Of a DNA stretch of 64,000 nt, positions 28,996-54,341 are shown piece after piece. Location of the stretch: assembly GCA_012728235.1 (NCBI GenBank), contig JAAYFL010000055.1:62001-126000 (forward strand), read 5' to 3'. The stretch is from Synergistaceae bacterium. Lineage in GTDB: Bacteria; Synergistota; Synergistia; Synergistales; Synergistaceae. Position numbers and translations under genes: made by a program. Each line of letters opens with the position of its first letter. The stretch's first letter is position 1. A model generated the notes under the pieces. It made no database searches and was not told where the DNA came from. It saw only the letters and a program-made list of their open reading frames with translations.

Positions 28996-29035
28996 CCTTA
29001 TCCTTCCTTCTTTCAAATTGCTTTAAATTAATTAA

Positions 29036-29848: not shown

Positions 29849-29850
29849 AT

Positions 29851-30333: not shown

Positions 30334-30336
30334 TTT

Positions 30337-34444: not shown

Positions 34445-34475
34445 CTGTAATAACCTTTCAGCGATTGTTTCTCAT

Positions 34476-35141: not shown

Positions 35142-35164
35142 TTATATCTACTCCTTAAAAATGT

Positions 35165-36692: not shown

Positions 36693-38066
36693 TTACTCAG
36701 AGTGATTCTTCTTTCTTAAGAGGGAAGGTGCATCGAAAGAATTCTCTAGCGTTCCGCTGAGATTAAACAAGTCATCTTCTGCTGAAGCCTGAATAGGCTG
36801 TGGTTTTGTTATTTCTTTCCCCTTTATTTCGCTCTCTTCCTCAGGAACCTCAAGCTTTACATTTTGATTAGTAACATCTTGATACAACCCCAATTGCTTG
36901 TTATTAGAACCTACTCTTGCAGTTTGTTGTGCATCATGAGCCTTTGTAACATCTATGCCCGTATTTATTTTACTTGCTGAATATAAATTCAAATTCTTCA
37001 CAGCTGATACGTCTAGGTTCTTTCTTGCTTCAGAAATAACGGAATGAGCAGGGCTTCTTTTCGTACTTTGAACATTTGAAGAAATCTGCTGTGTTTCGTC
37101 AAAACCTGCAGCGATAACTGTTATTTGTATTGAATCATCCATATCAGGATCAAAAACATGCCCCCAAATAATAAAAGCTTCTTCGTCTGCTGCTTCAGTT
37201 ATTATCCTTGTTGCTACATCTATTTCATGTATTCCAACATTAGCTCCACCAGTTATATTAAACAAGATTCCTTTTGCCCCTGATATTTTCGTGTCCATTA
37301 GAGGATTATTTATTGCATTGTATGCTGCCGTCGCAGCTCGCTTTTCTCCATATCCCTCTCCTATGCCCATTATTGCAGATCCGGCATTAGACATAATTGT
37401 CTTTACATCTGCGAAGTCAACGTTAACCAGCCCAGGGCGTAATATTAAATCAGTTACACCTTGCACAGCTTGGTGTAAAACTCCATCAGCAAGCTTAAAG
37501 GCATCATTTATTGTCGTTTTGTTATCTGTTCTTGAAAGTAATTTGTCATTAGGAATAACTATGAGTGCATCTACATTGCCTTTTAATTCTTTTACCCCGT
37601 TACTGGCCTGCAAAACACGGCGTTTCCCCTCAAAGGTAAAAGGCAACGTAACTACAGCGACTACAAGAGCTCCAGATTCTTTGGCTATAGATGCTATTAC
37701 TGGAGCGGCTCCGGTTCCTGTTCCTCCACCCATCCCTGCGGCAATAAACACCATATCTGCACCTTCAACCGAAGCGCGAATCTCTTCCCGTGACTCTAAA
37801 GCTGATTTACAACCAATTTCAGGATCCGAACCTGCGCCCAGCCCCTTTGTTAGCTCTTTCCCTAGTATCATCTGAGTTGAAGCTTCAGAAAGCTCTAAAT
37901 GAGCCATATCTGTGTTGGCTGCGATGAACTCAACCCCTAGCACACCACCTCTTATGATGTGATTTAAGGCGTTATTGCCTGCTCCTCCAACCCCTATTAC
38001 TTTTATAACTTCTCTTGTTAGTGTGCTTGATTTATCTAGCTGAAATATTTCGGATACTTCATTCAT
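36693..38066 (-). CDS. ftsZ: Cell division protein FtsZ
   Basis: Tubulin-like GTPase that forms the Z ring. The GTP-binding GMGGGTGTG, the N-terminal [15 protein letters not shown], and the T7 synergy loop NVDFADV are intact. After the globular core (about residue 325) comes a long, variable linker. The C-terminal peptide [10 protein letters not shown] is the usual site for binding FtsA. The length of 457 aa is long because of the linker. The ATG has AAGGGGAAAA upstream, 29 nt after ftsA. Confidence 0.98.
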
Positions 38067-38095
38067 TAAATTTTCCCCTTCCTAAAAATCAGAAA

Positions 38096-39466
38096 TTAAA
38101 ATAGCTCACTAAACATCTTTTTAATTCCTTGAATTAGATCGAATAAATCTCCTTCTCTTTTATCCCCCAAAGGTTTTTTATTGTTCCTAATTTTAATTAA
38201 TGGTTCGGGGACCAAGGTTCTTCCGTCCATATTTTCAGGTATATTTTTTATTGAAAGTGAATTATCCAAATATTTAAATGGATCTCTTTCCCTTTCCAGA
38301 ATGTATCTTATTATTCCGGCAGCTGAAGAGTACTCTTGAGTGTTGCGTCCAGGTGGCATGCGAGTTTCATCAACGGGAAGAGAAACTCTTGTAGGCAAGT
38401 CCATTAAATCTAATAAAAACCCATCTATACCCTCTGTTTTAGAAACACCCCCTGTTAAAATAATTCCAGCAGGGAGCATCGCTACATCGGCACATTTTAT
38501 CTCTGGTCTCACTAAAATATCAAATAACTCTTCCAATCTACATTTTATAATTTCGTATAAATCAATTTTAGCAACAGAATAATCTCTATCGTTAGAAACG
38601 AAATCTACAGTCTCTTCATTATCTTCTGGAGGGGCTAATATGGATATCTCTTTTTTTATTTCTTCAGCTTTGTTCAATGGTAGCTTCAAAACACTTCCAA
38701 CATCATTAGAAATATGATCCCCACCAATGGAAACAACCCCAAGATGTTTCGGACGGCCGTTTGAATACACAGCCACAGAAGTGGTTCCACCACCTATATC
38801 TATGACAACGGCACCAGCTAAAGACTCCTCCGGAGATAGTACTCCCAAGGCTGATGAAAGTGGCTTTAACACTAAACCAATTACATCAAGTCCTGCTTTA
38901 TAAACACAATTCATTATATTTTGTATCGTTGAAGAGGGGACTATTACAGATTGAAGCTGTATATCAAGCCGCATCGCAGTCATCCCTAAAGGATCATCTA
39001 TCCCTGCATTGCCATCAAGCGAATATTCAACAGGAATAGTGTGGAGTATACTTTGATTGGCAGGCACAGCTACATCTGCTTGCGCCGCTTCAATTACTCT
39101 TTCTATGTCTAGGCTCATAACCGGCCTTGCAACTCTCCCTAGAGAAACCATTCCTTTTGAACGGATATTTGTTACTTCACCGCCACCAAAAGAAACAGTC
39201 ACCTCTTTTATTTCTTGACCGACCATATTTTGTGCATCACTTACTGCTTGTTTTACAGAACGAACAGCTTGATCTAGGTTTACAATCATGCCTTTTCTAA
39301 TTCCGCTTGAAGGAGCTTGTCCAACCCCTATTATCTGAGCTCCATCGCCATTTATATCTCTTTCTGCGACAACTACTGTTATCTTACTTGTACCTAAATC
39401 AAGTCCAACAATAAGCTCGGGCTCAGTCTCTCCGATATAGCGCGAGGCTTTTCTGAACATGCACAT
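38096..39466 (-). CDS. ftsA: Cell division protein FtsA
   Basis: Actin-like ATPase that tethers FtsZ to the membrane. The phosphate-1 segment LIVGLDLGTSKI, the GAVVIDIGGGTTSVAVY phosphate-2 segment and ILTGGVSKTEGIDGFL are clear. The C-terminus DLIQGIKKMFSELF is an amphipathic helix for membrane targeting. It is 456 aa. The start ATG follows GAGGGGGCT. Its place directly before ftsZ is the conserved dcw order. Confidence 0.97.
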   Translation of the reverse strand: MCMFRKASRYIGETEPELIVGLDLGTSKITVVVAERDINGDGAQIIGVGQAPSSGIRKGMIVNLDQAVRSVKQAVSDAQNMVGQEIKEVTVSFGGGEVTNIRSKGMVSLGRVARPVMSLDIERVIEAAQADVAVPANQSILHTIPVEYSLDGNAGIDDPLGMTAMRLDIQLQSVIVPSSTIQNIMNCVYKAGLDVIGLVLKPLSSALGVLSPEESLAGAVVIDIGGGTTSVAVYSNGRPKHLGVVSIGGDHISNDVGSVLKLPLNKAEEIKKEISILAPPEDNEETVDFVSNDRDYSVAKIDLYEIIKCRLEELFDILVRPEIKCADVAMLPAGIILTGGVSKTEGIDGFLLDLMDLPTRVSLPVDETRMPPGRNTQEYSSAAGIIRYILERERDPFKYLDNSLSIKNIPENMDGRTLVPEPLIKIRNNKKPLGDKREGDLFDLIQGIKKMFSELF

Positions 39467-39498
39467 AGCCCCCTCTTTCTATATTATATTTATTCTAT

Positions 39499-40320
39499 TT
39501 ATTGTACCTTATTTTGTATTAAAATTTTACCTTTGTAAGTTGTATCTATAAAAATATTATTAGGTATTTCATTCATGTTTGGGTATATTTTTTTAATTGC
39601 CAGAAGCGGCTCATTCCAATCCTTAGGGTCATCTAAAAATAATATACTCAATCCCTTTGATTTTTGCTCATTAAAAAACAATTCAACAACTTGAGTATCG
39701 CCTTTGACTTTAGCTTGTATGAAATTTACAGAATCCAACAAACCGTGTTCCCTAATGTTGCTATACCACTCTTCTATCCTATCTATAGGTAAGTTTGTAT
39801 CCATAACATTACCCTTTTTATTGGACAAATCAACCGGCAACTTTCTGTCACTGCTCCAAGATAATATTGGGAGATCGTTTATATCACTCTTAATAATTTT
39901 TTTATTTTCTTCTAGTGTTGTTAGCCAAACTCTACTGTCTTCAGAAACATACCAATACTTCCCACCCCAATACATTCTAAATAGGGGTTTTAATGGAGAA
40001 CACTTAGCTCTGAATTTCCCCCATCCTTCCAGAAAAATATTCAGTTTTATTGGGAAATAATTACATATATGTTCTTGGTGTTTATGACTCCTCATCCAAT
40101 ATAAAGGCCATATTTTCTCTTCCAGAGAACTTAAGCTCCCCCACACAACACCTTCTGACAAAAGGCCTTGTGGCTCTATCGTTATATTATATACTCTAAA
40201 TATAGCATAACGAGACTCTGCGGCCGCTAACGCACCGGAGAAGAGTGCAAAACATATCAAAAATATTTTTATTCTCTTAATAGATCTTCTTCTGAAAGTC
40301 GCCAAAGAATTGGATTTCAT
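39499..40320 (-). CDS. FtsQ/DivIB-position membrane protein, divergent
   Basis: A 273-aa protein with a basic N-terminus and one membrane helix (about residues 18-36; IKIFLICFALFSGALAAA), then an extracytoplasmic domain with FRVYNITIEPQGLLSEGVVW, like a short POTRA, and beta-rich C-terminal part. It lies between murB and ftsA, exactly where ftsQ (divIB) stands in dcw clusters. Topology and place support a divisome linker role. Sequence alone is too divergent for certainty, so no symbol is given. I chose the ATG at 40320. An ATG at 40338 lies deeper inside murB and has no ribosome site. Confidence 0.68.
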   Translation of the reverse strand: MKSNSLATFRRRSIKRIKIFLICFALFSGALAAAESRYAIFRVYNITIEPQGLLSEGVVWGSLSSLEEKIWPLYWMRSHKHQEHICNYFPIKLNIFLEGWGKFRAKCSPLKPLFRMYWGGKYWYVSEDSRVWLTTLEENKKIIKSDINDLPILSWSSDRKLPVDLSNKKGNVMDTNLPIDRIEEWYSNIREHGLLDSVNFIQAKVKGDTQVVELFFNEQKSKGLSILFLDDPKDWNEPLLAIKKIYPNMNEIPNNIFIDTTYKGKILIQNKVQ

Positions 40321-41170
40321 ATTCCAGATTAACTCCATACTTCGCGTATACTCTGCTTCTGCATAATTCGCTCAAATTAAATATGTCTGAAGAAGAGGCT
40401 CTTCCAGTATTCTCTATAAAATTGGCATGAGAAGAAGACACTATTGCATCTCCACAACGCAAACCCTTGCAACCTGAATTTTCAAGCAAGCTTCCTGCAA
40501 AATGTCCTTCCGGATTTTTAAAAACACATCCCGCAGTTTTTTTACCTAGAGGTTGTCCTTTTTTGGAATATGAATACTCTTTTATTTTTTTAAATATTGT
40601 ATCTTTAGATACCTCTTTTAATAGAAAAGAACACTTTGTTATCATAAACGTACTGTTGTTAAACGGGTTTTTTCTATATTGCCAATTAAGGTCTTCAGCA
40701 CTCCAAACACGAATACTCCCATCTTTTTCTATAGTTTCTATTTCTGATACCACGTTTTTTAATCCTTCATTTCCAGCGCCTGCATTACCCCACAAGGCTC
40801 CTCCTACCGTTCCTGGAATACCAGTAAAAAACTCTAACCCTGTCAAGTTTTTATTAATAGCAAAAGTTAGTAGGTCTTTTGTAGTGAAACCACTTTCTAC
40901 ACTCACTCTAATTTTTTTTTCAAAATTATCGTCATTTACTGCTATATTACTAAGCGAAGATGTATGAAATACTGTCGCATCAAGAAGACCTTCAACAATA
41001 AGAACATTTGAGCCTCCTCCAAGCACATATATATCTTTTTTGTCATTTTTTGCACAGAGATATTCTTTAGCAGCTTCTTTAATTGTGCTAGGAACAAGCA
41101 ATTTTGCACAAAATCCACCTACTTGCCAAGTATTAAGACTTCTTAAATTAAAATTATTTGAGAGCGTCAT
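40277..41170 (-). CDS. murB: UDP-N-acetylenolpyruvoylglucosamine reductase MurB
   Basis: FAD enzyme that reduces the enolpyruvyl group to give UDP-MurNAc. Visible family features are LNTWQVGGFC, YVLGGGSNVLI, LEFFTGIPGTVGGALWGNAG, YRKNPFNN, the catalytic-Ser segment KTAGCVFKNPEG, SGCKG and a C-terminal SSHANFIENTG. At 297 aa it is type II-like in length. I chose the ATG at 41170, overlapping the murC end by 17 nt. A GTG at 41185 is also possible. The 3' end overlaps the ftsQ-position gene by 44 nt. Confidence 0.95.
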   Translation of the reverse strand: MTLSNNFNLRSLNTWQVGGFCAKLLVPSTIKEAAKEYLCAKNDKKDIYVLGGGSNVLIVEGLLDATVFHTSSLSNIAVNDDNFEKKIRVSVESGFTTKDLLTFAINKNLTGLEFFTGIPGTVGGALWGNAGAGNEGLKNVVSEIETIEKDGSIRVWSAEDLNWQYRKNPFNNSTFMITKCSFLLKEVSKDTIFKKIKEYSYSKKGQPLGKKTAGCVFKNPEGHFAGSLLENSGCKGLRCGDAIVSSSHANFIENTGRASSSDIFNLSELCRSRVYAKYGVNLEYEIQFFGDFQKKIY

Positions 41171-42590
41171 TTTTACCTGTTGCACTAAGTAAGTTTTTAT
41201 ATATATATTTCCCTAGGCTCCCTACACTTCCGGCCCCTATAGTTAAAATAAGGTCTCCTTGGCGTGCGTCCTTACATACAGACTGTACAAGCTCATCAAA
41301 GTTCCCTGATAATTCATAATGTGCTTTATTATCATCTGTTGCCGCATCAAATATTAACTTAGAGGTAATTCCTTTTATAGGAAGTTCATCTGAAGAGTAA
41401 ACTGGCAATATAAAAGCTTTATCAGCTAAAGAAAGGACATCTGCAAATTCTTTATATAGTGCAGCCGTGCGACTAAATCTATGCGGCTGAAATATGGCAA
41501 CTAATCTACGATCTGGATAAATTTCACGCACTGTATGTAGTGTCGCACGAATTTCACTTGGATGGTGTCCATAATCATCATATATTAAAATATTTCCTAT
41601 TTCTCCTGTCTTTTGAAGCCTGCGTTTTGCACCGCTAAAATTGACAAGAGCGGATTTAACATCTTCTATTGCTATTCCCATCTCGTGAGAGGCCGCACAT
41701 GCAGCCAATGAATTAAGGACATTATGCTCACCTGATACTGCTAAAGACAAACGCTCTATTTTTTTGCCTTTATAATTCAAGGTATATGATACTCCTCCAC
41801 CTAATCTATGCTGTACTTCAGTTGCACCCCAATCCCCCCCGGTGCCCCAACCATATGTAATGATATCCTTTTTATCAAATTTATATTCTGATAACAAATT
41901 AGCTATTCCTGAATCTTCCATACACAAAATCATTTTTCCATTTTCTTTTCTATTCAAAAGGAACTCATAGAATGCATCTGTTACTGATTTAAAGGTGATA
42001 TAATAATCTCTGTGGTCCCAATCAATATTTGTTACCACAGCAATCTCTGGATGAAAATAAGTAAAGGAACGATCACTTTCATCAAGCTCTGCCACCATAT
42101 AGTCGCTCTTTCCAAGTTTCGCATTGGTGCCTATGTCTGCGAGTTCCCCCCCGATTGCAATTGTGGAGTCAACTCCTGCACTCTCAGCTATCATAGAAAT
42201 CATAGAAGATGTAGTTGTCTTCCCATGTGTGCCACCTATTCCGACTCCTTTGCGCGCATTAAAAATTAAACTTAGAACTTCGGCCCTGCACGCCACAGTA
42301 ATTTCCTGTTGCCAAGCTTTAAGGATTTCAGGGTGATCTATAGGAATTGCACTAGAATAAACCAATATATCAGGTTGGTATTCGTCTATATGATTTAAAT
42401 TGTGTTCCATTGAAATTGATATTTTTCTATCTATAAGTCGTTTCATATAGCTTGTTTGGATAATATCACAACCTGAAACTATGGCTCCTATTTGATCCAA
42501 TAGGATGGCCAGCCCACTCATTCCAGCCCCACCAATTCCCATTAAATGTATTCTTTTTGATTTAAGATTTATGTTCCTGTCCAGAACCAA
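41154..42590 (-). CDS. murC: UDP-N-acetylmuramate-L-alanine ligase MurC
   Basis: Adds L-Ala to UDP-MurNAc. It has the N-terminal Rossmann IHLMGIGGAGMSGLAILLDQ, the ATP loop GIGGTHGKTTTSSM, and the C-terminal DDYGHHPSEIRATL and FQPHRFSRTA. I chose the TTG at 42590 (478 aa), 8 nt after AAAGGAG. Reading to 42656 would add 22 residues inside murG and beyond the family's N-terminus. It overlaps murG by 29 nt. Confidence 0.96.
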   Translation of the reverse strand: MVLDRNINLKSKRIHLMGIGGAGMSGLAILLDQIGAIVSGCDIIQTSYMKRLIDRKISISMEHNLNHIDEYQPDILVYSSAIPIDHPEILKAWQQEITVACRAEVLSLIFNARKGVGIGGTHGKTTTSSMISMIAESAGVDSTIAIGGELADIGTNAKLGKSDYMVAELDESDRSFTYFHPEIAVVTNIDWDHRDYYITFKSVTDAFYEFLLNRKENGKMILCMEDSGIANLLSEYKFDKKDIITYGWGTGGDWGATEVQHRLGGGVSYTLNYKGKKIERLSLAVSGEHNVLNSLAACAASHEMGIAIEDVKSALVNFSGAKRRLQKTGEIGNILIYDDYGHHPSEIRATLHTVREIYPDRRLVAIFQPHRFSRTAALYKEFADVLSLADKAFILPVYSSDELPIKGITSKLIFDAATDDNKAHYELSGNFDELVQSVCKDARQGDLILTIGAGSVGSLGKYIYKNLLSATGKNDALK

Positions 42591-43677
42591 AGAAAGCACT
42601 CCTTTCAATCTTAAGAGAAAGTGCAAGCCAAAAACTTTCACAAGTCCTATTTGCACTATTATATAACCTTATATTATTCTTTACTGACGGGTCTTGATAT
42701 ATTTTATAAACTTTAGCAAGCTTGTTTTCAAAATCTGTTAGATTCCTTTTTTCATCCCAAATGACAGCGGCATTCTCAGCTGTAAAAATACTTGCATTAC
42801 TGAACTGGTGATCATCTGATGCTTCTCTCCAAGGTACAACAACAGACGGTATCCCTAATGAACCTAACTCTGCAAGAGTTGAAGCTCCTCCACGTGCCAC
42901 TGCTATATCAGCAAGTGAATACAATAATGACGCATCCCAAACGTGAGGAAGTAAAAAAACATTGTTTTGTATTTTTTCCGGCTTATCAGACACTCCGGGT
43001 AAGACAAAAATCCATTTTTTGTATTTTTCTTTTTTTGCCATCTTTGAAATTTTGTCTTTTATAGATACACTGCCTAAGGAACCAGTTAACCCAACAACTA
43101 TAATCCCTTTTGGCAATCTTTCAAGAAAACCTAATTTCTTCCAAGCATCTTTCCTGTCATACTTCTTGAAGGTTCTAACAGGGACTCCTATCGGTGTAAA
43201 AGTCCCGTTTTTTAAAGGATTGCATTCCTCCCAACCAGTAAATATATCAATTTTCATAATTCTCGCAACCCTTGTGCTCTTACCTGCATAAGCATTTTGT
43301 TCATGTATAACAATAGGAATTTTATTGAATTTACAAAGCAACATAAATGGAACAGAAATATAGCCTGCAAAAAGTATACAGATAACCGGATCCAATTCCC
43401 GTAAAATTCGCTGCGCTCTAAAAAAACTTATAAAAAACGTTAAAAAACGATGGATTTTTTGTGATATATTTGCACCCGAGAAGGGAGAGCCCTCTATCGG
43501 CAAAACTCGTGGCTCAATATTGACAGATTTATATATCTCATGCTCTATCAGTCTCGCACCACAAACATAATTTACATTAAATTCCTTTTTATTAGTCTCT
43601 ATCCAGCTCCCAAAAGATATGGCAGGCCATATATGTCCTCCGGTGCCTCCAGCCACAAGCAAAATATTCTTTTTCAT
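42562..43677 (-). CDS. murG: Undecaprenyl-PP-MurNAc-pentapeptide GlcNAc transferase MurG
   Basis: Peripheral inner-membrane glycosyltransferase (GT28) that converts lipid I to lipid II. The N-terminal VAGGTGGHIWPAI, VIHEQNAYAGKSTRV and the donor-site ARGGASTLAELGSLGIPSVVV are typical. It is 371 aa. The ATG has GGAGG well upstream and overlaps the ftsW stop by 4 nt. Confidence 0.96.
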   Translation of the reverse strand: MKKNILLVAGGTGGHIWPAISFGSWIETNKKEFNVNYVCGARLIEHEIYKSVNIEPRVLPIEGSPFSGANISQKIHRFLTFFISFFRAQRILRELDPVICILFAGYISVPFMLLCKFNKIPIVIHEQNAYAGKSTRVARIMKIDIFTGWEECNPLKNGTFTPIGVPVRTFKKYDRKDAWKKLGFLERLPKGIIVVGLTGSLGSVSIKDKISKMAKKEKYKKWIFVLPGVSDKPEKIQNNVFLLPHVWDASLLYSLADIAVARGGASTLAELGSLGIPSVVVPWREASDDHQFSNASIFTAENAAVIWDEKRNLTDFENKLAKVYKIYQDPSVKNNIRLYNSANRTCESFWLALSLKIERSAFFGSGQEHKS

Positions 43678-44807
43678 AGAGGGGCAACCTCCAAACTACT
43701 CTCTCTCTCAAGTCTCATTAAAATACCCACTCTTGCCCACATGGTTAATAATGATGTTCCACCATAGCTAACAAAGGGAAGGGGCATACCTGTCATTGGT
43801 GAAAATTTTGTTACACCTGCAATATTTATAAAAAGAGGTAATATAACTGTAAGGGCTATCCCCCACGTTAACGATGCATTAAATTCTGAGTGCACCTTGT
43901 AATATATTCTTCGTACTCGAGAAATCCAAAAGGCAAATAATCCTAAAACACCTAAAGTGCCAATAAGACCAAGTTCTTCTCCTATTGCCGCGTAAATAAA
44001 ATCAGTATACGCAGCAGGTAAGTAGTTTAACTTTTGATATCCATGTCCTAAGCCCGAACCCCAGAATCCACCATTTGCAAAAGCTATTAGCCCTTGAATC
44101 GCTTGAAATCCTGTTTTTAATGGATCAGCCCATGGATCAATAAAAGCTAACACCCGGCGCATTCTATATACCTTACCGAAAACAAGACTAGGGACTGCTA
44201 CACCCGCAATCACACCCCCAGCAAAAATGGGGTATTTCCAACCCACTCTTTCTACATACATGCCCATACAAATCAAAAATAAAAGCATAGCACTCCCAAA
44301 ATCAGGTTGAAAGAGAAGTGGTAAAACGGCAAAAAACATTAATATACAGGTTGAGATGAAAGCCTTTAATGGGTCTTTGCTTGTTCGAGTTTGTATTTTA
44401 GCTAAATGTAAAGCCATTGCGAGACATAATAACTCACCGGGCTGAAAAGAAATCCCCATACCCGGAATTTGTATCCACCTACGTGCTCCACCCACAGCTG
44501 TAGCTGTACCAAAAAAAAGAGGCACCCATGACATTATCCATGTCGTTATTAAAATAAATCCACTAGTCTTATACCAAAATTTTAGAGGAAACAAATATAC
44601 TATCAACATGGATATAACTGCTAAAAAAAACCACTGTAATTGTTTCATTCCCATTTGAAAAGGAGTGCCTGTAGAAGCAAAAGATGTGGTACTAGTTGTA
44701 GAAGTAATCATAAGAATTCCAATCCCTGTCAAAATAAAAGGAATGACCCATAAAAAAGGAGTTACTCTGAAATTATCCGATATGTTTTGGGATCTCACAT
44801 CTTCCAC
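43674..44807 (-). CDS. ftsW: SEDS-family lipid II polymerase FtsW
   Basis: Septal glycan polymerase that works with FtsI. About ten membrane helices are seen. Family blocks are RWIQIPGMGISFQPGELLCL, LLFQPDFGSAMLLFLICMGM, LPAAYTDFIYAAIGEELGLI and MPLPFVSYGGTSLL. It is 377 aa. The start is GTG, one nucleotide after the murD stop, without a strong ribosome site, so it is probably coupled to murD. Confidence 0.96.
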   Translation of the reverse strand: MEDVRSQNISDNFRVTPFLWVIPFILTGIGILMITSTTSTTSFASTGTPFQMGMKQLQWFFLAVISMLIVYLFPLKFWYKTSGFILITTWIMSWVPLFFGTATAVGGARRWIQIPGMGISFQPGELLCLAMALHLAKIQTRTSKDPLKAFISTCILMFFAVLPLLFQPDFGSAMLLFLICMGMYVERVGWKYPIFAGGVIAGVAVPSLVFGKVYRMRRVLAFIDPWADPLKTGFQAIQGLIAFANGGFWGSGLGHGYQKLNYLPAAYTDFIYAAIGEELGLIGTLGVLGLFAFWISRVRRIYYKVHSEFNASLTWGIALTVILPLFINIAGVTKFSPMTGMPLPFVSYGGTSLLTMWARVGILMRLERESSLEVAPL

Positions 44808-44808
44808 T

Positions 44809-46182
44809 TTAACTTTCTTCTCTTTCTATAATTTTTTTAACTTGTTCACAAAAATCTTTTCCCCTAGCTTTATAATCCGCATACATATCCCAACTTGTAC
44901 AAGCCGGAGAAAGAAGAACAATATCACCAGATGTGGCTTTTGAGTATGCAACTTCTACTGCTTCTTGCATTGTGTTTACTACAGAATATGCTTTAAATCC
45001 AACTCCATCCAAAGCTCCAGCAATATTTTCTTTCTCCGAGCCAATCAAAACAGCATATTTTGTATAGCTCGTAACAGCTTCTGCCAGTGGAATGTAGGAT
45101 TCACCCTTTCCCTGTCCTCCTAATATGACGACTTTAGTCCCGTTTAATGCAGTTAACGCTGTGATAGTTGCGGCAACATTAGTTCCTTTGGAATCATCTA
45201 CAAAAGTAATTGAATTTACTTCTCCGACATAAGAACAACGATGTTGTGGTGGAGTATAAAGCGAGATAACCTTTTCGGGAACTGCTATGTTATATAACTC
45301 AAGCAAAGACAGGGCCATAGCTAAGTTCGTCAAATTATGTGCGCCAAGCAATTTTATATTTCCAAATTCAAATAATCTTCTTAACCTATTCCTTTTTAAG
45401 TCGCACAACCAAGCAGCACGTTCCTCATTGTCTAAAAAGATACCAGTAATATTTTTTTCTTTAACATCCCATGAGAGAGGAATACAATCCAACCCATCTT
45501 TTATATTCAATATCTTCATATCATCACTTTGGCAAATAAGAACACCTGATTTATCTATATAATTTATTAATTTAGCTTTCGATGCGATATAATTCTCATA
45601 TGATCCGTGCCAATCTATATGATCGGGAGCTATATTGGTAATAATAGCGGAATCACAATGAAATTTTTTTGACCAATGCAACTGAAAACTGCTGAGTTCT
45701 ATTACAATAAAGCTATATTCATTCTCAGCAATCTCAGCAATAGGCTTGCCGATATTGCCGCATGTAGCTACATTGTGCCCCATTTTTTCTAAAAAATAAC
45801 CTAACATAGAAACCACTGTTGTTTTGCCATTACTTCCTGTTACAGCTAGAATCTTCCCCGACAAAAATGGGTAAACAAAATCGATCTCTCCTGTAATTAT
45901 TATTCCTAGACGACTTGCTATTTTGAGCATTTCATTCTGCGGCGAAATTCCGGAACTAACCACTATCTCACTATAACTTAACAACTTATCTGTGTTTCCA
46001 TTTTCTTCCCAAGTAATTCCCTGTGAAATAAATAACTCTTTTTGCTCCATTTTTATCTCACTTGAATCAGAAACGAATACTTTTGCCCCACATTTTTTTG
46101 CCAGGACAGCCAATGCAGCACCACTTACACCGGCTCCAATTATTGCTATGTTTTTATCCTTTAAACAATCCTTTTTAATCAT
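44809..46182 (-). CDS. murD: UDP-MurNAc-L-Ala-D-glutamate ligase MurD
   Basis: Adds D-Glu to UDP-MurNAc-L-Ala. It shows IAIIGAGVSGAALAVLAKK, the ATP loop VTGSNGKTTVVSM, IAPDHIDWHGSYENYIASK, AHNLTNLAMAL and VDDSKGTNVAATITAL. It is 457 aa. It lies between mraY and ftsW. The ATG has AGGTTA upstream. Confidence 0.97.
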   Translation of the reverse strand: MIKKDCLKDKNIAIIGAGVSGAALAVLAKKCGAKVFVSDSSEIKMEQKELFISQGITWEENGNTDKLLSYSEIVVSSGISPQNEMLKIASRLGIIITGEIDFVYPFLSGKILAVTGSNGKTTVVSMLGYFLEKMGHNVATCGNIGKPIAEIAENEYSFIVIELSSFQLHWSKKFHCDSAIITNIAPDHIDWHGSYENYIASKAKLINYIDKSGVLICQSDDMKILNIKDGLDCIPLSWDVKEKNITGIFLDNEERAAWLCDLKRNRLRRLFEFGNIKLLGAHNLTNLAMALSLLELYNIAVPEKVISLYTPPQHRCSYVGEVNSITFVDDSKGTNVAATITALTALNGTKVVILGGQGKGESYIPLAEAVTSYTKYAVLIGSEKENIAGALDGVGFKAYSVVNTMQEAVEVAYSKATSGDIVLLSPACTSWDMYADYKARGKDFCEQVKKIIEREES

Positions 46183-46203
46183 TAACCTATACCTCTATGC
46201 CGT

Positions 46204-47166
46204 CTAAAGTAAGGATATTAGATAATCTAGAGCAAAGAAACAAGCTAACATCCCTATTATATGTATTATCCAAAACCGTATGACAATCTGCGTTTCCTTC
46301 CACCCCAGCAATTCAAAATGATGATGAATTGGGCTCATTAAAAATATTTTTTTATTGAAACATCTGATGGATATTATTTGAATCGCAACAGACAATATTT
46401 CTGTTCCAAACAGGAAACCGAAAGGAATTATAACTATAAAAACTCCAGAACAAAGCGATAGAGAAAAAAGGAGGCCTGCTAAAAAATGTGAGCCAACATC
46501 CCCCATAAAAACCTCTGCCGGATTAAAGTTTTGCCAAAGGAATCCCAACAAAATTCCAAAAGTTGTGATTAGAATCCACAATAATACGGGGTCATTACCA
46601 AAAAAACCTATTGCACCGGCCAAAGAAAGCAACATACATCCCGTAGCTAATCCGTCAAGTCCATCTGTAACATTAACCGCATTTTGAAACCCTACTCCAA
46701 CAAATGTCACAAGCAATACTGAAGGTATAGTTGGTAAAACGCGACCAGGCAACAATTCAAGCCCATCAGGCAACACCCATATGACCCAAGGAAGGGTAAC
46801 TGTTATTTGTAATATTAGTTTTTGTATACTTCTTAACCCATCACTTGAGTGTTTAACGTATTTTATCCAATCATCAATAAACCCAACTGAAGCGGACAAA
46901 ACAGTATAAATCGCTATTTTATAAGTTATATTGTTCGGCTCTATAGCTTTAATAAAATACAAACATGCAATTGATATTAAGAATATAGGTATAAACACTA
47001 AGCCACCCATAGTGGGTGTTCCCAGCTTAGTCTTTTCGTGCCAAGAGGGTCCATATAATTTAACTTGCTGTTTTATTTTGAGGTGATTCATCTTTGATAT
47101 CCATATTTTTTGAAAAATAATCTCCGCCAAGAAACAGGAAAGAAATAATAATAAAAACATCAACAT
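46204..47166 (-). CDS. mraY: Phospho-MurNAc-pentapeptide transferase MraY
   Basis: Membrane enzyme that makes lipid I by transferring phospho-MurNAc-pentapeptide to undecaprenyl phosphate. About ten helices are seen. Signature blocks are HEKTKLGTPTMGGLVFI, IDDWIK, NVTDGLDGLATG, FMGDVGSHFLAGLL and MSPIHHHFELLGWKE. The usual FMGDTGSLALG box is changed to FMGDVGSHFLAG, while the key Asp stays. I chose the ATG at 47166 (320 aa), 8 nt after GAGGGG. A GTG at 47175 overlaps the murF stop. Confidence 0.96.
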   Translation of the reverse strand: MLMFLLLFLSCFLAEIIFQKIWISKMNHLKIKQQVKLYGPSWHEKTKLGTPTMGGLVFIPIFLISIACLYFIKAIEPNNITYKIAIYTVLSASVGFIDDWIKYVKHSSDGLRSIQKLILQITVTLPWVIWVLPDGLELLPGRVLPTIPSVLLVTFVGVGFQNAVNVTDGLDGLATGCMLLSLAGAIGFFGNDPVLLWILITTFGILLGFLWQNFNPAEVFMGDVGSHFLAGLLFSLSLCSGVFIVIIPFGFLFGTEILSVAIQIISIRCFNKKIFLMSPIHHHFELLGWKETQIVIRFWIIHIIGMLACFFALDYLISLL

Positions 47167-47171
47167 ACCTA

Positions 47172-48560
47172 TCACCCCTCTAGCTCTTTAACTATTTTTG
47201 CTAATCCATAAGAATTTGAACCTTTTACCAAAATAAGACCTTGAGATATGTTTAAAAGCTTTACCTGTTCTAACATCTTTTCATATGTTTCAAAACATAG
47301 AACATTAGGATTTAAAGTGACATCAATTGCACCCCACTCTTTCCCCAACAAAAAAACTTTGTCAAAAGCATCTAATTTTTTTATTATATTATTATGATAC
47401 TGAACAGATTCTTTACCAAGCTCTTTCATTCCAGCAAGAACTGCATATGATTTAAACTCGTAATTTTCTCTAAGATTAGCGATATTATCTAGCGCAGCCT
47501 CCATTGAACATGGGTTGGCATTGTACGATTCATCTATCAGCCAAGTTTCGTCGTTAATTTTATGCAAAACCCCTCTACCTTCAATAGCACGTGATTTCTT
47601 TAGTGAATTTCTTAGTTGTTCCTCACTGACATCATATAGACTCCCCACTGATACTGCATAGCCTATATTATAAGCATGCTGTAAACCGAAAAGGGACGAA
47701 ACAAAAGCAAGACTTTTTTCTCCTTCTAGAAACTCTACATATAATGAGGATAAGCTGTCTTTAAGAACCATTTTAGCTTTCACTATTTTTAGTGATGCAT
47801 CAGCTGCATATCCCACAGAAATAACATTGCCTTCATAACAACTACGTATGTTTTTTTTGAGAAGCTGATTATCTCCATTTATTATTACATTTTTAATATT
47901 AGTTGAAGAGCATATTTCGAGTTTTGCTTTTAGTACTCCCTCTATACTCTCAAGCTCTTCCAAATGTGCGGCCGCAACTGAAGTGATTATCGCCGTATCT
48001 GGTGAGAAAAAATCAGCCATTTCTGATATTTCCCCCGGTCTATTTGTACCAAATTCAAGTACTAAGATCTCTGTATCAGGAAGCATTGAAAGCACTGTCA
48101 GACTAGAACCAATAATTGTATTGAAACTCTTTATTGCTCCATGAACCCTATATTTCTCTCGTAGTACGGATACAACCAACTCCCTCGTTGTTGTTTTACC
48201 GACACTTCCTGTAATGGCAATAACTTGAGGAGTCGTTTTTTTAAGATAGGCTTGTGCCAGTGTAGCCAAAGCTTTGTTTGTATCTTCTACAACTATAAAT
48301 GTAATCTCATTAAAAAATGGCTGATTTATATCTAGTTTCTCTATTTCTCTTGCATCTATCAGCAACAACTTTGCACCCCTGCTTACAACATCTCTTATAA
48401 ACATATGGCCATCTACGCAGGATCCCTTTATAGCAACAAATGCATCATTAGGTTTTATTTCTCGGCTGTCACTTTTCCAAATTCTATTTATTTTAATATC
48501 AGGACCGAAAAACACTCCTCCACAAATTAACGCTGCTTCGGAAGCTTTTATATAACTCAT
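47172..48560 (-). CDS. murF: UDP-MurNAc-tripeptide-D-Ala-D-Ala ligase MurF
   Basis: Adds D-Ala-D-Ala to complete the pentapeptide. It has the N-terminal WKSDSREIKPNDAFVAIKG, the ATP loop AITGSVGKTTTRELV, LEFGTNRPGEI and WLIDESYNANPCSMEAAL. I chose the ATG at 48560 (462 aa), preceded by AGAGGTG and overlapping the murE stop by 4 nt (ATGA). The longer reading adds ten residues within murE. Confidence 0.96.
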   Translation of the reverse strand: MSYIKASEAALICGGVFFGPDIKINRIWKSDSREIKPNDAFVAIKGSCVDGHMFIRDVVSRGAKLLLIDAREIEKLDINQPFFNEITFIVVEDTNKALATLAQAYLKKTTPQVIAITGSVGKTTTRELVVSVLREKYRVHGAIKSFNTIIGSSLTVLSMLPDTEILVLEFGTNRPGEISEMADFFSPDTAIITSVAAAHLEELESIEGVLKAKLEICSSTNIKNVIINGDNQLLKKNIRSCYEGNVISVGYAADASLKIVKAKMVLKDSLSSLYVEFLEGEKSLAFVSSLFGLQHAYNIGYAVSVGSLYDVSEEQLRNSLKKSRAIEGRGVLHKINDETWLIDESYNANPCSMEAALDNIANLRENYEFKSYAVLAGMKELGKESVQYHNNIIKKLDAFDKVFLLGKEWGAIDVTLNPNVLCFETYEKMLEQVKLLNISQGLILVKGSNSYGLAKIVKELEG

Positions 48561-50062
48561 AAGTGCACCTCTACCTTGTTTTTCAAACACCAGTTAAATA
48601 GAACGTCCTTGTCTAATAGTGGAACCGGCCCTTCCTTACGGATTTGATAACGCTCGGGACCTCTGCCGGCAAGCAATAAAATATCATTTTCCGTCAATCT
48701 CTTTAAACCACTTTCTATTGCCTCTTTTCTGTCAACAGACAAATCATAATTACTGTTATATTTTTTTACTCCCTTTTCAATTTCAGAAATGATACATTCA
48801 GGATCTTCACTTCTCGGGTTATCCGAAGTAATGATAAGTTTATCTGCTAATTTCCCGGCAACTTCTCCCATTATAGGTCTTTTATCCCTATCTCTATCTC
48901 CTCCTGCACCAAATACTATATGCAGTTCTCCTTTGCATACTAATCTTAGAGTTGATAAAACCTTCTCTAAACTATCCGGACTATGAGCAAAGTCAATCAC
49001 GCAGGCACCCTTATTCTTCAACTTATACCTTTCCAATCTACCCGGAATCTGTTCGATTTTTGAAAGCCCCTCAAGTGCAGAGACAAGTCTCACATTTAAT
49101 GTCGAGGCAATCGCCAAAGCTTCAAGAGCATTGTGCACGTTATAATCTCCTAAAATTGGAAGTTTAAGTGAAAGATTTTTTTTGCTGCCTTTGACTTTAA
49201 TTTTAACCTTCATCCCATCAATAGACATTTCTTCGATAAAAGCGTAAAAATCAACATTCTTTTCTTTTGTGCCAAAAGTAACAACATGGGTTCCATATTC
49301 ATTAATTAATCTTTTGCCATATTGGTCATCGATGTTAATTATGGATTTCCAATCTTTTTTTACATAGCAATCAAAGAGTTTTTTCTTAGCTAAAAAATAC
49401 TGCTCCATATTTTTATGGTAATCCAGGTGATCTTCTGTTAAATTACTAAATCCTATCCTATCGAAGTACGTTCCCTCAATTCTTCCCTGTTCTATGGCAT
49501 GTGAAGAAGCCTCCATAATGCAAACATCACAATTATTTTCTGCCATTCTTGACAGCCAATATTGCAAATCAGAACCTTCAGGCGTAGTATGGATGGCTTC
49601 CACTGTATTCTCACCATCATCATAATATACCGTTCCAAGCGATCCTGTTTTTATTCCGTTATTTTCTAGAATGGATTTAAGCATGAAGGCTGTGGTTGTT
49701 TTGCCATTGGTGCCAGTTAATCCAACCATTGTTAATTTTCTTGTGGGATGTCCATACAACAAGGATGCGACTCTCCCCATATTCCTTCTTATATCTTCAC
49801 AAATTATCTGAGGAACATCTAAGTCTAGACGTTTTTCACAAAGAAAAGCTTTAGCACCGGAGATCATTGCTGTACGAGCAAAATCATGACCATCAAAATT
49901 TTCGCCTTTTACGCAAGCGAACATATCTCCTTCTTGTACATTCCTACTGTCAGAGACGATTCTTTTTATCTCAACATCTTCACAATGAGCATAACTGGGT
50001 GGGTATAAGTTTATACTTAATGAATTTTCATCGATTAAGCATAGGAGCTCTTTTAAATTCAT
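48557..50062 (-). CDS. murE: UDP-MurNAc-L-Ala-D-Glu:meso-diaminopimelate ligase MurE
   Basis: Adds the third stem-peptide residue. The ATP loop is GLTGTNGKTTTAFML. EASSHAIEQGR and SNLTEDHLDYHKNMEQYF are conserved. The specificity loop reads SDNPRSEDP; DNPR is the hallmark of meso-diaminopimelate-adding MurE, while L-Lys enzymes differ there. This indicates a DAP-type wall. It is 501 aa. The ATG follows AAGGGGGGAG. Confidence 0.97.
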   Translation of the reverse strand: MNLKELLCLIDENSLSINLYPPSYAHCEDVEIKRIVSDSRNVQEGDMFACVKGENFDGHDFARTAMISGAKAFLCEKRLDLDVPQIICEDIRRNMGRVASLLYGHPTRKLTMVGLTGTNGKTTTAFMLKSILENNGIKTGSLGTVYYDDGENTVEAIHTTPEGSDLQYWLSRMAENNCDVCIMEASSHAIEQGRIEGTYFDRIGFSNLTEDHLDYHKNMEQYFLAKKKLFDCYVKKDWKSIINIDDQYGKRLINEYGTHVVTFGTKEKNVDFYAFIEEMSIDGMKVKIKVKGSKKNLSLKLPILGDYNVHNALEALAIASTLNVRLVSALEGLSKIEQIPGRLERYKLKNKGACVIDFAHSPDSLEKVLSTLRLVCKGELHIVFGAGGDRDRDKRPIMGEVAGKLADKLIITSDNPRSEDPECIISEIEKGVKKYNSNYDLSVDRKEAIESGLKRLTENDILLLAGRGPERYQIRKEGPVPLLDKDVLFNWCLKNKVEVHL

Positions 50063-50086
50063 TTTATACTCCCCCCTTGTTATTAT

Positions 50087-51775
50087 TTATAGTGAAGGCA
50101 TTAGTTGTATAACATCTTCTGCTATTGATTTAAAGACAGGAGCAGCTATCTGTCCTCCGTAAAACTTACTACCTTTAGGTTCGCCCAATGTGATTAACAT
50201 TACATATTTAGGTTTGTCAGCAGGCCAAAAACCAACAAAAGAGGCAACTCGAAGTCCTTTGACATACTCTCCTGAAGAAGCGACTTGCGCTGTTCCTGTC
50301 TTACCAGCTATGGATACAAGATCAGACTTAGCCAATAATCCTCCGCCTTCATCTACAACTTTTTTCATTGCGGCACATAAAAAATCAGCTGTTTTCTTCG
50401 ACACAGATTGATAGCGAGTTTTCCTGGCACCTTTATGTATAACCACTCCGTGGCTATCTTTTACCTCTGAGATAATATAAGGTTTTAAAAGATATCCGCC
50501 ATTCACTATGCTTGCAACAGCCATAACTTCCTGTAATGGCGTCACTGCTATCCCTTGACCTATAAATACATTTGCGGCCGAACTGCCAAGCCACTCTTCT
50601 GGCTGTCTGATAAGTCCATTTTCTTCTCCGCTCATCTCAATTCCTGTTTTTTCTCCAAAACCAAACTGTTTAAGCATTCCATATGCTTTATGTCTTGGGA
50701 CACTTCCAGACATTATTGACATGGCGATATTACACGAATTCATTAAAACTTGAGTGAGATTTTGAACACCATGCGCTTTCCTATTTACATCGTTAATAAC
50801 TGTATCTGCTATGACAATACTTCCGTTACAACGATATCTGCTACTTTGGTCAGCAGTACCACAATCCATTGCTATAGACATAGTTATAGGCTTGAAAATT
50901 GAACCAGGTTCATAAACTCTCCCGATTACATTGTTTCTGGTAGCCTCTTTGTTGTCTAATAATAAACCTCTATTATTTGCATCAAGAGTTGGGTAACTAG
51001 CTAGTGCTATAACCTCGCCCGACCAAGGATCAACACAGACTGCTGCACCCCAAGAAGCCTTAACTCCCTTAGCCGCTTCATCAAGTCGCCATTCTACAAT
51101 TTGTTGTATCTTTGAATCTATAGTAAGTTTTATTGACCCACAAGTATCTTTTGTCTCTTGATTCTCCCCCACTACACCCTTCAGGCCTCCCTGAGAACCT
51201 CTGGTTAAGAATCGTGTCCTTGGCGGAGAGAATAGAATGTGATTCCAAGCTAATTCTACTCCCGCTTGTCCATAATCATCTATGTCACAAAATCCTAATA
51301 TGTGGAATGCTAAAGGGCCGTGGGGATACACTCTTTTTTTCTCAGTAAGAGTGTAAAGACCCGGAATTTTCTTGTTAGCCAACTCACTCTTCTCTGACAG
51401 CAACACATTTCTTGCTACCCAATGAAATCTCCCGTTTAATGGTTTAGAGAATTTTTTTGAAACTTCCTTACCAAAAGAAGATTCTAAAACATCTGCACTC
51501 TTGGGATTCCAAAACTTTGGATCTATAAAAAAACTCGTGGCCGGTATTGAGACCGCAAGAGGAACATTATTTCTGTCTGTAATTTCACCTCTTGAGGCAC
51601 TCACCGCCACGTTAGCCCAATACTGTTTTTGGGACTGATTGACAATTCTTTTATCTGGTTTAAGTTGAATCCAAGCTGTCGCCACAGCAAGCAATGCTAT
51701 TACAAAGTAAACCAAAAACCATACAAGCTTCGAACGCTTACACTGTTCAGGCTGATCAACTCTAGTTTTTGGCAT
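50087..51775 (-). CDS. ftsI: Septal peptidoglycan transpeptidase FtsI (PBP3-type)
   Basis: Class B penicillin-binding protein that crosslinks septal wall. It has one N-terminal membrane helix (about residues 17-38), the dimerisation region ASRGEITDRNNVPLA, and the active-site motifs SIFK (in EPGSIFKPIT), SCN (MNSCNIAMS) and KTGTAQV. It is 562 aa. I chose the ATG at 51775; a GTG two codons earlier is possible. It overlaps the ftsL end by 14 nt. Confidence 0.95.
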   Translation of the reverse strand: MPKTRVDQPEQCKRSKLVWFLVYFVIALLAVATAWIQLKPDKRIVNQSQKQYWANVAVSASRGEITDRNNVPLAVSIPATSFFIDPKFWNPKSADVLESSFGKEVSKKFSKPLNGRFHWVARNVLLSEKSELANKKIPGLYTLTEKKRVYPHGPLAFHILGFCDIDDYGQAGVELAWNHILFSPPRTRFLTRGSQGGLKGVVGENQETKDTCGSIKLTIDSKIQQIVEWRLDEAAKGVKASWGAAVCVDPWSGEVIALASYPTLDANNRGLLLDNKEATRNNVIGRVYEPGSIFKPITMSIAMDCGTADQSSRYRCNGSIVIADTVINDVNRKAHGVQNLTQVLMNSCNIAMSIMSGSVPRHKAYGMLKQFGFGEKTGIEMSGEENGLIRQPEEWLGSSAANVFIGQGIAVTPLQEVMAVASIVNGGYLLKPYIISEVKDSHGVVIHKGARKTRYQSVSKKTADFLCAAMKKVVDEGGGLLAKSDLVSIAGKTGTAQVASSGEYVKGLRVASFVGFWPADKPKYVMLITLGEPKGSKFYGGQIAAPVFKSIAEDVIQLMPSL

Positions 51776-52160
51776 GCGCACTCTTTACGAAGGGATTTAG
51801 CCTTTCTATTAATCCTTCTTCTCTTACTACATTTGTTTTCGCACTAGCTACGGCTACCACATTCATGTCTATTTGTACTATTTGAGGATTCTCTCCATTT
51901 ACCATGCCCAATTTTTCTCTGGCATAGCTATAAATCCTTGCCGGTGCTAATAGTTCGGCGTGCACTTGAGATAATTTTTGGTTTTTCTCCTGACATCTCT
52001 CAATGCTTGCAACAGTTTCTGAGATTCTATGATCAATATACAATCCATAGAGTCTGAGAGAGCCCAAGCAAATAGCAGAAACAAACACAAAGAAAAGACT
52101 TAAAAACAACAACTTAGAATGGGCTTCTTCATTAGTCTGTCGGTATTCTCTGTAGTACAT
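51762..52160 (-). CDS. ftsL: FtsL-type division protein
   Basis: A 132-aa bitopic protein: short cytoplasmic start, membrane helix (about residues 17-40; KLLFLSLFFVFVSAICLGSL), then an extracytoplasmic coiled coil (ETVASIERCQEKNQKLSQVH) followed by AREKLGMV, the usual FtsL/DivIC pattern. It lies between rsmH and ftsI, the standard ftsL place. I chose the ATG at 52160, with GGTGGAG upstream; a longer reading lies wholly in rsmH. It overlaps rsmH by 29 nt. Confidence 0.85.
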   Translation of the reverse strand: MYYREYRQTNEEAHSKLLFLSLFFVFVSAICLGSLRLYGLYIDHRISETVASIERCQEKNQKLSQVHAELLAPARIYSYAREKLGMVNGENPQIVQIDMNVVAVASAKTNVVREEGLIERLNPFVKSAHAKN

Positions 52161-53085
52161 TGTGAGCTCCACCTTTCTCCGCAAATTTTTTAAATATGCG
52201 TAATTTTGCACTCCTAGACTTATAATTTTGTTCAATCTCACTTTCAGTAGGCTTTATAACTTTTCTTGGCTCCTGCTTGCCTATACAGTCCTCTTCCCAC
52301 TTCTTGAATCTGTGCTTAACCATTCTGTCTTCCAATGAATGATAAGAAATTACTAATATTTTCCCTTCCGGTGCTAATATTTTTAGTACTCCGTCTAAAG
52401 CTTCGTCCAAAGCTTTTATCTCGTCATTGACTACGATACGTAGTGCTTGAAAAATCTTTCTAGCAGGATGCCCTCCCATTTTTCTTTGTACTGGTGCTGG
52501 CAAAATTTCACGTATTAATTCAACAAGATCCCCTGTTGTTTCAAGTACTCCTCCACTTTCTCTGTGTCTTACTATCCCTCTTGCGATATGATATGCATTC
52601 GGGTCTTCCCCGTATAATCTGAAAATTTTGGTTAACTCGCCTATTGACCACTCATTTAATATTTTCCCCGCACTTGGAGAAGCTTCGCTCTTGTTTTCAC
52701 TGTTCATTTTCATACTTAGCGGTCCATCATTTTGAAAAGAAAAACCTCTCTCTGCATTTGTTAACTGAATGTTTGAAACACCTAAATCAAAAAGCACTGC
52801 GTTCGCGCCATTCCAACCTTTTCTTTCAGCTAACTTTTCAATATTGCGGAAGTTGTCTGCTATTATTTCAAAACGACCTGTAAAGGGTAACAATCTTTCT
52901 GCTGCAATCTCTCTTGCATACGAATCTTGATCAAATCCAATAATTGTTGCTTTTTTACATTTCTTCAAAATTTCTATTGAATGTCCTGCTAATCCCAGTG
53001 TTGCATCTACAAAAACTCCTACCGAATCAGACGGCTCTAAAGCAGACAGAACTTCGTTAAGCATTACAGGAACATGTTCGTTCAT
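52132..53085 (-). CDS. rsmH: 16S rRNA (cytosine(1402)-N4)-methyltransferase RsmH
   Basis: SAM-dependent enzyme that methylates C1402 in 16S rRNA. It has the N-terminal HVPVMLNEVLSAL, motif I VDATLGLAGHS, AVLFDLGVSNIQL, ERGFSFQNDGPLSMKMN, and C-terminal ISYHSLEDRMVKHRFKKW. At 317 aa it is full length. Two usually fixed positions in the GPLDMRMD box are changed (D to S and D to N). It lies directly after mraZ, as in most dcw clusters. Confidence 0.95.
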   Translation of the reverse strand: MNEHVPVMLNEVLSALEPSDSVGVFVDATLGLAGHSIEILKKCKKATIIGFDQDSYAREIAAERLLPFTGRFEIIADNFRNIEKLAERKGWNGANAVLFDLGVSNIQLTNAERGFSFQNDGPLSMKMNSENKSEASPSAGKILNEWSIGELTKIFRLYGEDPNAYHIARGIVRHRESGGVLETTGDLVELIREILPAPVQRKMGGHPARKIFQALRIVVNDEIKALDEALDGVLKILAPEGKILVISYHSLEDRMVKHRFKKWEEDCIGKQEPRKVIKPTESEIEQNYKSRSAKLRIFKKFAEKGGAHNVLQRIPTD

Positions 53086-53087
53086 AA

Positions 53088-53507
53088 TTATTCCAGCTCT
53101 TCGGCCATGTCACTAAAATCAAATAAAACTTCTTTTCTATGCTCTTCCCATTTCTTTGTATCCCAAATTTCTATGTGGTCTTCTGCGCCTATAAACGTTA
53201 TCTCTTGATCTGCATTAGCATATTCACGTAAAAGTAGGGGCAATAATATCCTTCCCGAAGCATCAATTTCCTGTTCTGTTGCCATTGATAAGAGCACTCT
53301 ACGGAAATCACGCGTTTTTTTCTTAAAAGAGGACAAATCTTTTAATTTAAATAGCAACTCTTCCCAACGAGACAAAGGGTATAAAGCTATACAACGATCG
53401 ATGCCTATAGTTGCAACGACAGAATTACCCAGCTCTCCTCTGAAACGTGCTGGAAGAACCGTTCTGCCCTTACTATCAACTTTGTGGTTATAGCTTCCCA
53501 CTAGCAT
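53088..53507 (-). CDS. mraZ: Transcriptional regulator MraZ
   Basis: DNA-binding regulator of the dcw cluster, with two AbrB-like modules. Each has a D-x-K/x-G-R motif: NHKVDSKGRTVLPARFR near the start and QEIDASGRILLPLLLREYA in the middle. I chose the ATG at 53507 (139 aa), giving the standard MLVGSYNH start. A GTG at 53522 lies inside the operator repeats. It is the first gene of the long minus-strand run. Four phased GTGG(G/T) boxes just upstream indicate autoregulation. Confidence 0.93.
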   Translation of the reverse strand: MLVGSYNHKVDSKGRTVLPARFRGELGNSVVATIGIDRCIALYPLSRWEELLFKLKDLSSFKKKTRDFRRVLLSMATEQEIDASGRILLPLLLREYANADQEITFIGAEDHIEIWDTKKWEEHRKEVLFDFSDMAEELE

Positions 53508-53512
53508 CACAT

Positions 53513-53552
53513 TTTCGCCCACTTTCTACCACTTAGTCCCACTTTGCACCAC
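53513..53552 (-). promoter_or_regulatory. MraZ box: four phased 10-bp direct repeats
   Basis: On the minus strand four consecutive decamers read GTGGTGCAAA, GTGGGACTAA, GTGGTAGAAA and GTGGGCGAAA, with no gaps. Known MraZ operators consist of several (G)TGGG/TGGT-type repeats spaced one helical turn apart, which this matches closely. The array starts right after the -10 box and ends 6 nt before the mraZ ATG, so bound MraZ would block transcription start. Confidence 0.88.
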
Positions 53553-53579
53553 AGTATATCCTTGATGCAAACAAATCAA
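53553..53579 (-). promoter_or_regulatory. Promoter of the dcw (mra) run
   Basis: Minus-strand TTGATT, 15 nt, TATACT. The -10 abuts the first MraZ repeat. The spacing is short for sigma-70; TGTTGA with 17 nt is an alternative -35. This is the only promoter-like sequence I see for the ~25-kb run. Confidence 0.6.
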
Positions 53580-53741: not shown

Positions 53742-53779
53742 AAAACAAGTGTGGTGACATTTGTCACCACACTTGTTTT
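53742..53779 (-). terminator. Rho-independent terminator of rnpB
   Basis: Perfect 18-bp inverted repeat (AAAACAAGTGTGGTGACA and complement) with a 2-nt loop, followed on the minus strand by a T-rich tract. It starts 1-2 nt beyond the RNase P RNA 3' end. Confidence 0.88.
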
Positions 53780-53780
53780 A

Positions 53781-54278: not shown

Positions 54279-54292
54279 ATATTTATATTCCC

Positions 54293-54341
54293 TGGAGAGG
54301 GGAACGGAATTCGAACCCGCGATCCCAACCTTGGTATGGTT
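54293..54341 (-). pseudogene. Degenerate 3' portion of a tRNA-Gly gene
   Basis: From the anticodon arm to the CCA this 49-nt stretch matches tRNA-Gly(GCC) at 56956-57004 in 41 positions, in the same orientation. The T-arm (GCGGG-TTCGAAT-TCCGT) and CCA remain, while the acceptor strand is changed and no D-arm or 5' acceptor precedes it. Such 3' tRNA fragments are typically left at the far end of elements that integrated into a tRNA gene. A decayed tandem tRNA copy is the alternative. Confidence 0.7.

Follow-up and report, generated by a model that had tools for sequence, protein, structure and literature searches.

The question raised by this locus is whether the short direct repeats directly upstream of mraZ are the operator of the MraZ protein and, if so, what effect the bound protein would have on the dcw genes that follow. 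The analysis covered the whole 64,000-nucleotide stretch of DNA (the window), the 1,574,747-base assembly that contains it, and related genomes of the same order. With a probability of roughly 90%, our data point to the decamers being the MraZ operator of the dcw operon, at which bound MraZ would block the promoter and so bring about autorepression and control of the division genes. The identity of the repeats as MraZ boxes, which had been proposed in a preliminary description of the sequence, is strongly supported by their phase, their motif, their occurrence at a single site, their conservation, their absence where mraZ is absent and their match to published operators. Autorepression is the likeliest mode of action, as we infer from the position of the boxes and from the E. 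coli and M. genitalium systems.

On the minus strand, positions 53513-53558 (given as the reverse complement) read TATACT GTGGTGCAAA GTGGGACTAA GTGGTAGAAA GTGGGCGAAA, followed by ATGTG and then by the mraZ ATG at 53507. The four decamers have the form GTGG(T/G)NNNAA and run without gaps from 53552 to 53513 at a period of 10 bp, as the preliminary description had reported; five bases (ATGTG) were counted from the last box to the ATG, and not the 6 nt given there. Box 1 (GTGGTGCAAA, 53543..53552) was assigned from the sequence, and its opening two bases are also the end of the preferred −10 hexamer. Box 2 (GTGGGACTAA, 53533..53542), box 3 (GTGGTAGAAA, 53523..53532) and box 4 (GTGGGCGAAA, 53513..53522) were assigned from the sequence and from relatives; in most close relatives, box 4 reads GTGGGTG and there also lies at the position of the Shine-Dalgarno sequence. 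The region upstream of mraZ contains at least three direct GTGK repeats at 10-bp spacing, and the array and its uniqueness were observed directly. A scan of the window for in-phase GTGG triples found only two starts, each within the mraZ array, and a search of the whole assembly for GTGG-N6-GTGG-N6-GTGG likewise gave two starts, both in this array (reversed control, 0). The pattern AAAGTGK-N3-AAAGTGK with at most one mismatch was matched three times in the whole assembly, always in the mraZ array (reversed control, 1). At the GTGG frequency of the window, the chance expectation is 7e-5 four-fold arrays per genome, and when the 75-bp stretch before mraZ was shuffled (first-order), 0 of 2000 shuffles reached the array score (p = 0.0005).

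These data suggest that MraZ in this genome may have a single target, the dcw run. A wider MraZ regulon in the assembly was considered and is not supported, as AAAGTGKNNNAAAGTGK with at most one mismatch and the strict GTGG triple were both found only at mraZ. A second MraZ target in one relative (G098), whose arrays lie on two contigs, was rejected as well, since each array precedes a copy of mraZ, one of them cut by the contig end. A candidate fifth box, the GTGGG at mraZ codons 3-4, begins 21 bp past box 4 and is out of phase. This GTGGG reflects the Val-Gly of the protein; for the Val at position 3, the codon GTG was counted in 30 of 53 and GTT in 2.

The gene directly downstream of the array (mraZ, 53088..53507, minus strand) has an ATG start and encodes a 139-aa protein matched by TIGR00242 and PF02381. 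The protein scored 133.9 bits against TIGR00242, where the cut-off is 98.35, and so belongs to the MraZ family; five narrower MraZ models were also matched, each below its own cut-off. PF02381 was matched in two stretches of the protein (two MraZ domains), and residues K13, R15, P19, R23, D82, G85 and R86 were invariant in the alignment, which comprised 32 of the 53 MraZ proteins. The AF2 model (mean pLDDT of 94.8) has the MraZ fold: it matched M. pneumoniae MraZ (1n0e) with a Z of 22.6 and an rmsd of 1.4 over 137 aligned residues, and the MraZ of 9sz7, which is deposited as a cryo-EM structure of M. genitalium MraZ with a four-box promoter, with a Z of 20.8 and an rmsd of 1.5 over 138. The best structure match other than to MraZ had a Z of 4.6. 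A protein of this kind would act as an oligomer of two-domain subunits that contacts the in-phase GTG cores from a single face of the DNA.

A comparison of the repeat array in relatives, as the preliminary description had proposed, was performed across the order. Sixty genomes (own genome counted) were searched with the window MraZ, with a match in 50; a profile search of 16 genomes (the 10 without a match and 6 new ones) gave three further mraZ genes, all in family f3, for a total of 53. The best four-box array of 10-bp period in the 75 bp upstream of mraZ was then scored, with a maximum of 16. Scores of at least 13 were obtained in 48 of the 53 mraZ-bearing genomes of the order (own genome counted) and lower scores in 5, counts that represent non-independent trials given the common ancestry of these genomes. 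When each sequence was compared with its own shuffles, p was below 0.05 (uncorrected) in 50 of 53, the exceptions being L019, L020 and L021. The mean best score was 14.1 at a spacing of 10, compared with 9.5-10.0 at spacings of 8, 9, 11 and 12, and base identity upstream of mraZ was 0.47 at lag 10, compared with 0.31 at lag 9 and 0.33 at lag 11. In 27 of the 48 arrays, the distance from the start of the array to the ATG is 45 nt.

The strict GTGG triple was present in 43 of 100 genomes, which implies degenerate boxes in many relatives, and some of its matches lie away from mraZ. Of 57 strict-triple matches, 30 were inspected, and 23 of these were directly upstream of mraZ; both spacers ended in AA in 22 of the 23 mraZ-upstream matches and in 0 of the 7 located elsewhere. 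Among 14 named loci with MraZ relatives, 12 were from Synergistaceae/Synergistes assemblies or Candidatus Caccocola, with a best protein identity of 91%, and the remaining two were from Acetomicrobium (52%) and an Eisenbacteria assembly (33%). The alternation of GTGGT and GTGGG, which had been pointed out as a feature of the array, is real in the window, but the four-box form (GTGGT/GTGGG/GTGGT/GTGGG) was found elsewhere only in the genus mate L004 among the 17 closest genomes, and it was rejected as a signal. The G/T/G pattern of boxes 2-4 occurs in 8 of the 17 closest genomes, window counted, when the alignment rows are read by eye.

The base composition of the boxes bears on a different view of the array, namely that its G-tracts form a promoter G-quadruplex. 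A structure of this type is reported in a G-rich stretch located downstream of the S. aureus mraZ promoter, with conserved G-rich motifs in other bacteria (PMC11796246), and the window array does have four G runs. Two of these four runs are merely GG, however, the loops would be 7-8 nt long, and only 16 of the 48 arrays carry GG in every one of their four boxes. Of the 192 boxes in these arrays, 189 had the core T, 183 the TG and 191 a G or T as the fourth base; A occupied each of the three positions preceding the core in 133 to 143 boxes, giving the pooled consensus AAAGTGK. The retention of the core T, the TG and the A-rich spacer fits recognition by a protein better, and we consider a G-quadruplex very unlikely to account for the array.

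Relatives that lack mraZ served as natural controls, as they also lack the array. In the six genomes examined from genus g23, family f3 (G037, G046, G054, G077, G084 and G093; 97-100% complete), rsmH was present and an MraZ profile match was found in none. The array was absent from the 300 bases upstream of rsmH in all six, with a best score of 8 or 9 of 16, and these scores were no higher than the off-period scores of the mraZ-bearing genomes. Three f3 genomes from other genera had an MraZ match and array scores of 13 or 14. A genome from a genus other than g23 (G011) had no MraZ match by profile, and the region upstream of its rsmH scored 9. By eye, this region (L071) resembles a degraded mraZ start that retains a single GTGG box. 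Six further mraZ-less genomes (G009, G019, G026, G029, G045 and G057), in which the search gave no rsmH or one truncated by a contig end, were left out of this comparison. The lack of an array in the mraZ-less genomes compared, together with the uniqueness and phase of the array in the window, argues against a chance origin. Box 4 stands at the Shine-Dalgarno position in close relatives, as it would if the array were a ribosome-binding feature without MraZ binding, but boxes 1-3 are too far upstream for this role. A chance array or a ribosome-binding feature of this kind is thus extremely improbable.

The E. coli mraZ operator was reportedly described by Eraso et al. in 2014. In the E. coli K-12 sequence, the mraZ ATG is preceded by three GTGG boxes (−44, −34 and −24) and, over the Shine-Dalgarno sequence, by a weaker GGGG box (−14), which is nearly the same placement as in the window (−45, −35, −25 and −15). 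E. coli K-12 differs in its apparent −10, TAAACT, the end of which is 7 nt upstream of box 1, and in the degeneracy of its fourth box. For B. cenocepacia, PMC7761207 reports by EMSA that MraZ binds a 250-bp fragment with four repeats downstream of the −10. This promoter, PmraBc, is similar to that of the window in having four repeats with 10-bp spacing (7 nt plus a 3-nt spacer) over the start site (PMC7761207); it differs from PmraBc as presented there in that two bases of the −10 hexamer appear to belong to box 1 as well in the window. For Mollicutes, PMC5282649 gives the MraZ site as (AAAGTGKN3)3, and PMC5138195 treats it as known and conserved. The pooled consensus of the order, AAAGTGK, is the core of this Mollicutes site, with the same period (PMC5282649). 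The window would extend the MraZ-dcw autoregulatory circuit, a well-known arrangement, to the little-studied Synergistota. No literature on MraZ in Synergistota was found among the matches listed, which is weak evidence of absence as the search term also matched "synergistic".

The same operator could also serve an MraZ that is mainly an activator, or a dual regulator, of the dcw run. MraZ is described as an activator in mycoplasmas in work cited in PMC7761207, so by that account the sign of MraZ regulation is not universal. In M. genitalium, on the other hand, loss of mraZ is reported to derepress the cluster, making MraZ a repressor, and the same source cites E. coli MraZ as a repressor (PMC8475190); the reported sign varies among mycoplasma species in these sources. 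The M. genitalium cluster differs from that of the window in having four genes. The position of the boxes also weighs against activation, as box 1 either overlaps the −10 or directly adjoins it and the others are downstream, where a bound protein normally blocks polymerase. Mainly activating or dual regulation is therefore unlikely, though we give it more weight than the G-quadruplex.

Repression by MraZ would depend on where the promoter lies relative to box 1. A −35 element, TTGATT, was located at 53574..53579 (minus strand), with TTG at the same position in 16 of the 17 closest genomes; in the same number (window counted), the distance from this TTG to box 1 is fixed and the spacer sequence is variable. 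The preliminary description had taken TATACT (53553..53558, minus strand) as the −10. TATACT is the closer match to consensus within the window itself, but its spacer is 15 nt, and the key T, A and T of this register are retained in only 5 of the 17 closest genomes. A spacer of 17 nt would place the −10 at TACTGT (53551..53556, minus strand), and in 16 of the 17 closest genomes this register gives TAnnGT, the final two bases of which are the start of box 1. The seventeenth genome, L019, fits the same register after a 1-nt shift, for 17 of 17. The MraZ box itself also constrains the final T of TAnnGT, which therefore does not count as independent evidence, and independent support for TACTGT is provided by the A at the second position (17 of 17) and by the 17-nt spacing. 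The TTG/TAnnGT register was found in just 7 of the 36 more distant genomes, outside the 17 closest. Relatives therefore favour a predicted −10 placed 2 nt downstream of TATACT, at TACTGT, where it overlaps box 1.

Both registers are readings from consensus, and under either of them box 1 touches or overlaps the putative −10, so that the repeats overlap or lie just downstream of a −10 placed by consensus and conservation. The mraZ promoter was not listed by a simple promoter scan with a spacer range of 16-18, TACTGT having fewer than four −10 consensus matches and TATACT a spacer of 15 nt. The predicted transcription start is near 53544, which would give a leader of some 37 nt. With box 1 overlapping both the −10 and this predicted start, bound MraZ would be expected to block RNA polymerase from opening the promoter. 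By blocking the promoter, MraZ would hold down the expression of its own gene and of the division genes transcribed with it. The locus adds to the known systems in that box 1 overlaps the predicted −10, box 4 overlaps the Shine-Dalgarno position, the array occupies one site in the genome and relatives without mraZ lack it.

At the other end of the array, box 4 opens with GTGGG in all 17 of the closest genomes, followed by TG in 13. Pairing between the last 24 nt and the 16S tail was predicted at −8.9 to −13.2 kcal/mol in 15 of these 17 genomes. The two weakest values, each −7.0 kcal/mol, belong to the window and the genus mate L004, which share GTGGGCGA. At 53513-53522 (minus strand), GGGCGA is found in the window and L004 and GGGTG in most close relatives, with weak Shine-Dalgarno pairing in the former. 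Judging from the pairing, box 4 probably doubles as the Shine-Dalgarno sequence across most of the clade but does so less well in the genus of the window. The GTG at 53522, within box 4, is not the preferred mraZ start, as in L004 the ATG is kept but is out of frame with it. In the core Synergistaceae, the operator may be fused with the −10 at box 1 and with the Shine-Dalgarno sequence at box 4, so that the leader is mostly operator, that recognition, promoter and ribosome binding co-evolve, and that the genus of the window initiates mraZ weakly; to us this is about an even proposition.

The extent of control would depend on how far transcription from this promoter reaches. mraZ is the first dcw gene, and it is followed after 2 nt by rsmH (mraW; 52132..53085, minus strand; PF01795) and then by an ftsL/divIC-like ORF (51762..52241, minus strand) with an uncertain start codon, which matched PF04977 at 23.9 bits, below the cut-off of 28.9. 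The dcw run, assigned from domains and gene order, continues at 36693..51781 (minus strand) with genes for a penicillin-binding protein (ftsI), murE, murF, mraY, murD, ftsW, murG, murC, murB, an ORF at the ftsQ position that had no Pfam match, ftsA and ftsZ. A continuation at 28645..36604 (minus strand) consists of genes for a radical SAM protein and a SPOR protein, moeA, a moeA-PBP fusion, moaA, moaC, a moaB-like gene and a small ORF for which no match was found. By eye, a long hairpin lies past this continuation at about 28.6 kb. As gene order, the run of about 25 kb that the preliminary description had outlined, with FtsZ and the Moco genes included, holds: it extends on one strand from 53507 to 28645, or 24.9 kb, and when the longest ORFs are taken, no gap in it exceeds the 88 nt that separate ftsZ from the radical SAM gene.

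This arrangement recurs in relatives. A strong MoeA match was found in 41 of the 50 mraZ-bearing genomes, and in 28 genomes (own counted) moeA is on the same contig and strand as mraZ, 16.9-20.5 kb downstream. In the other 13 of the 41, MoeA is on another contig, and in none is it elsewhere on the mraZ contig, so that linkage is 28 of 28 where the two share a contig. As 9 of the 50 genomes lack a strong MoeA match, the linkage is common and not universal. Scans of the run for terminators and promoters gave sites no more numerous than in shuffles, and these internal-site scans therefore neither support nor exclude a single transcript. A single transcript from mraZ through FtsZ to the Moco genes is possible. 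The RNase P RNA upstream of mraZ (53777-54118) is followed by a strong hairpin and U run at its end (53742..53779, minus strand; z −9.0), a probable terminator, and the run therefore probably starts at the mraZ promoter. Further upstream, at about 54280-54540 (minus strand), a tRNA-like T-arm and acceptor end was seen by eye, resembling the 3′ end of a tmRNA-type RNA; ARAGORN made no call in this region, and Rfam gave only a weak sub-threshold SAM-SAH match.

Two MoeA-type genes, at 33209-34444 and 31296-33221 (minus strand), lie downstream of ftsZ and of the SPOR-domain gene. The protein encoded at 33209-34444 scored 212.8 bits against the model of the divisome protein Glp (NF045515), well below the cut-off of 475. 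A possible link between Moco genes and division would merit attention.
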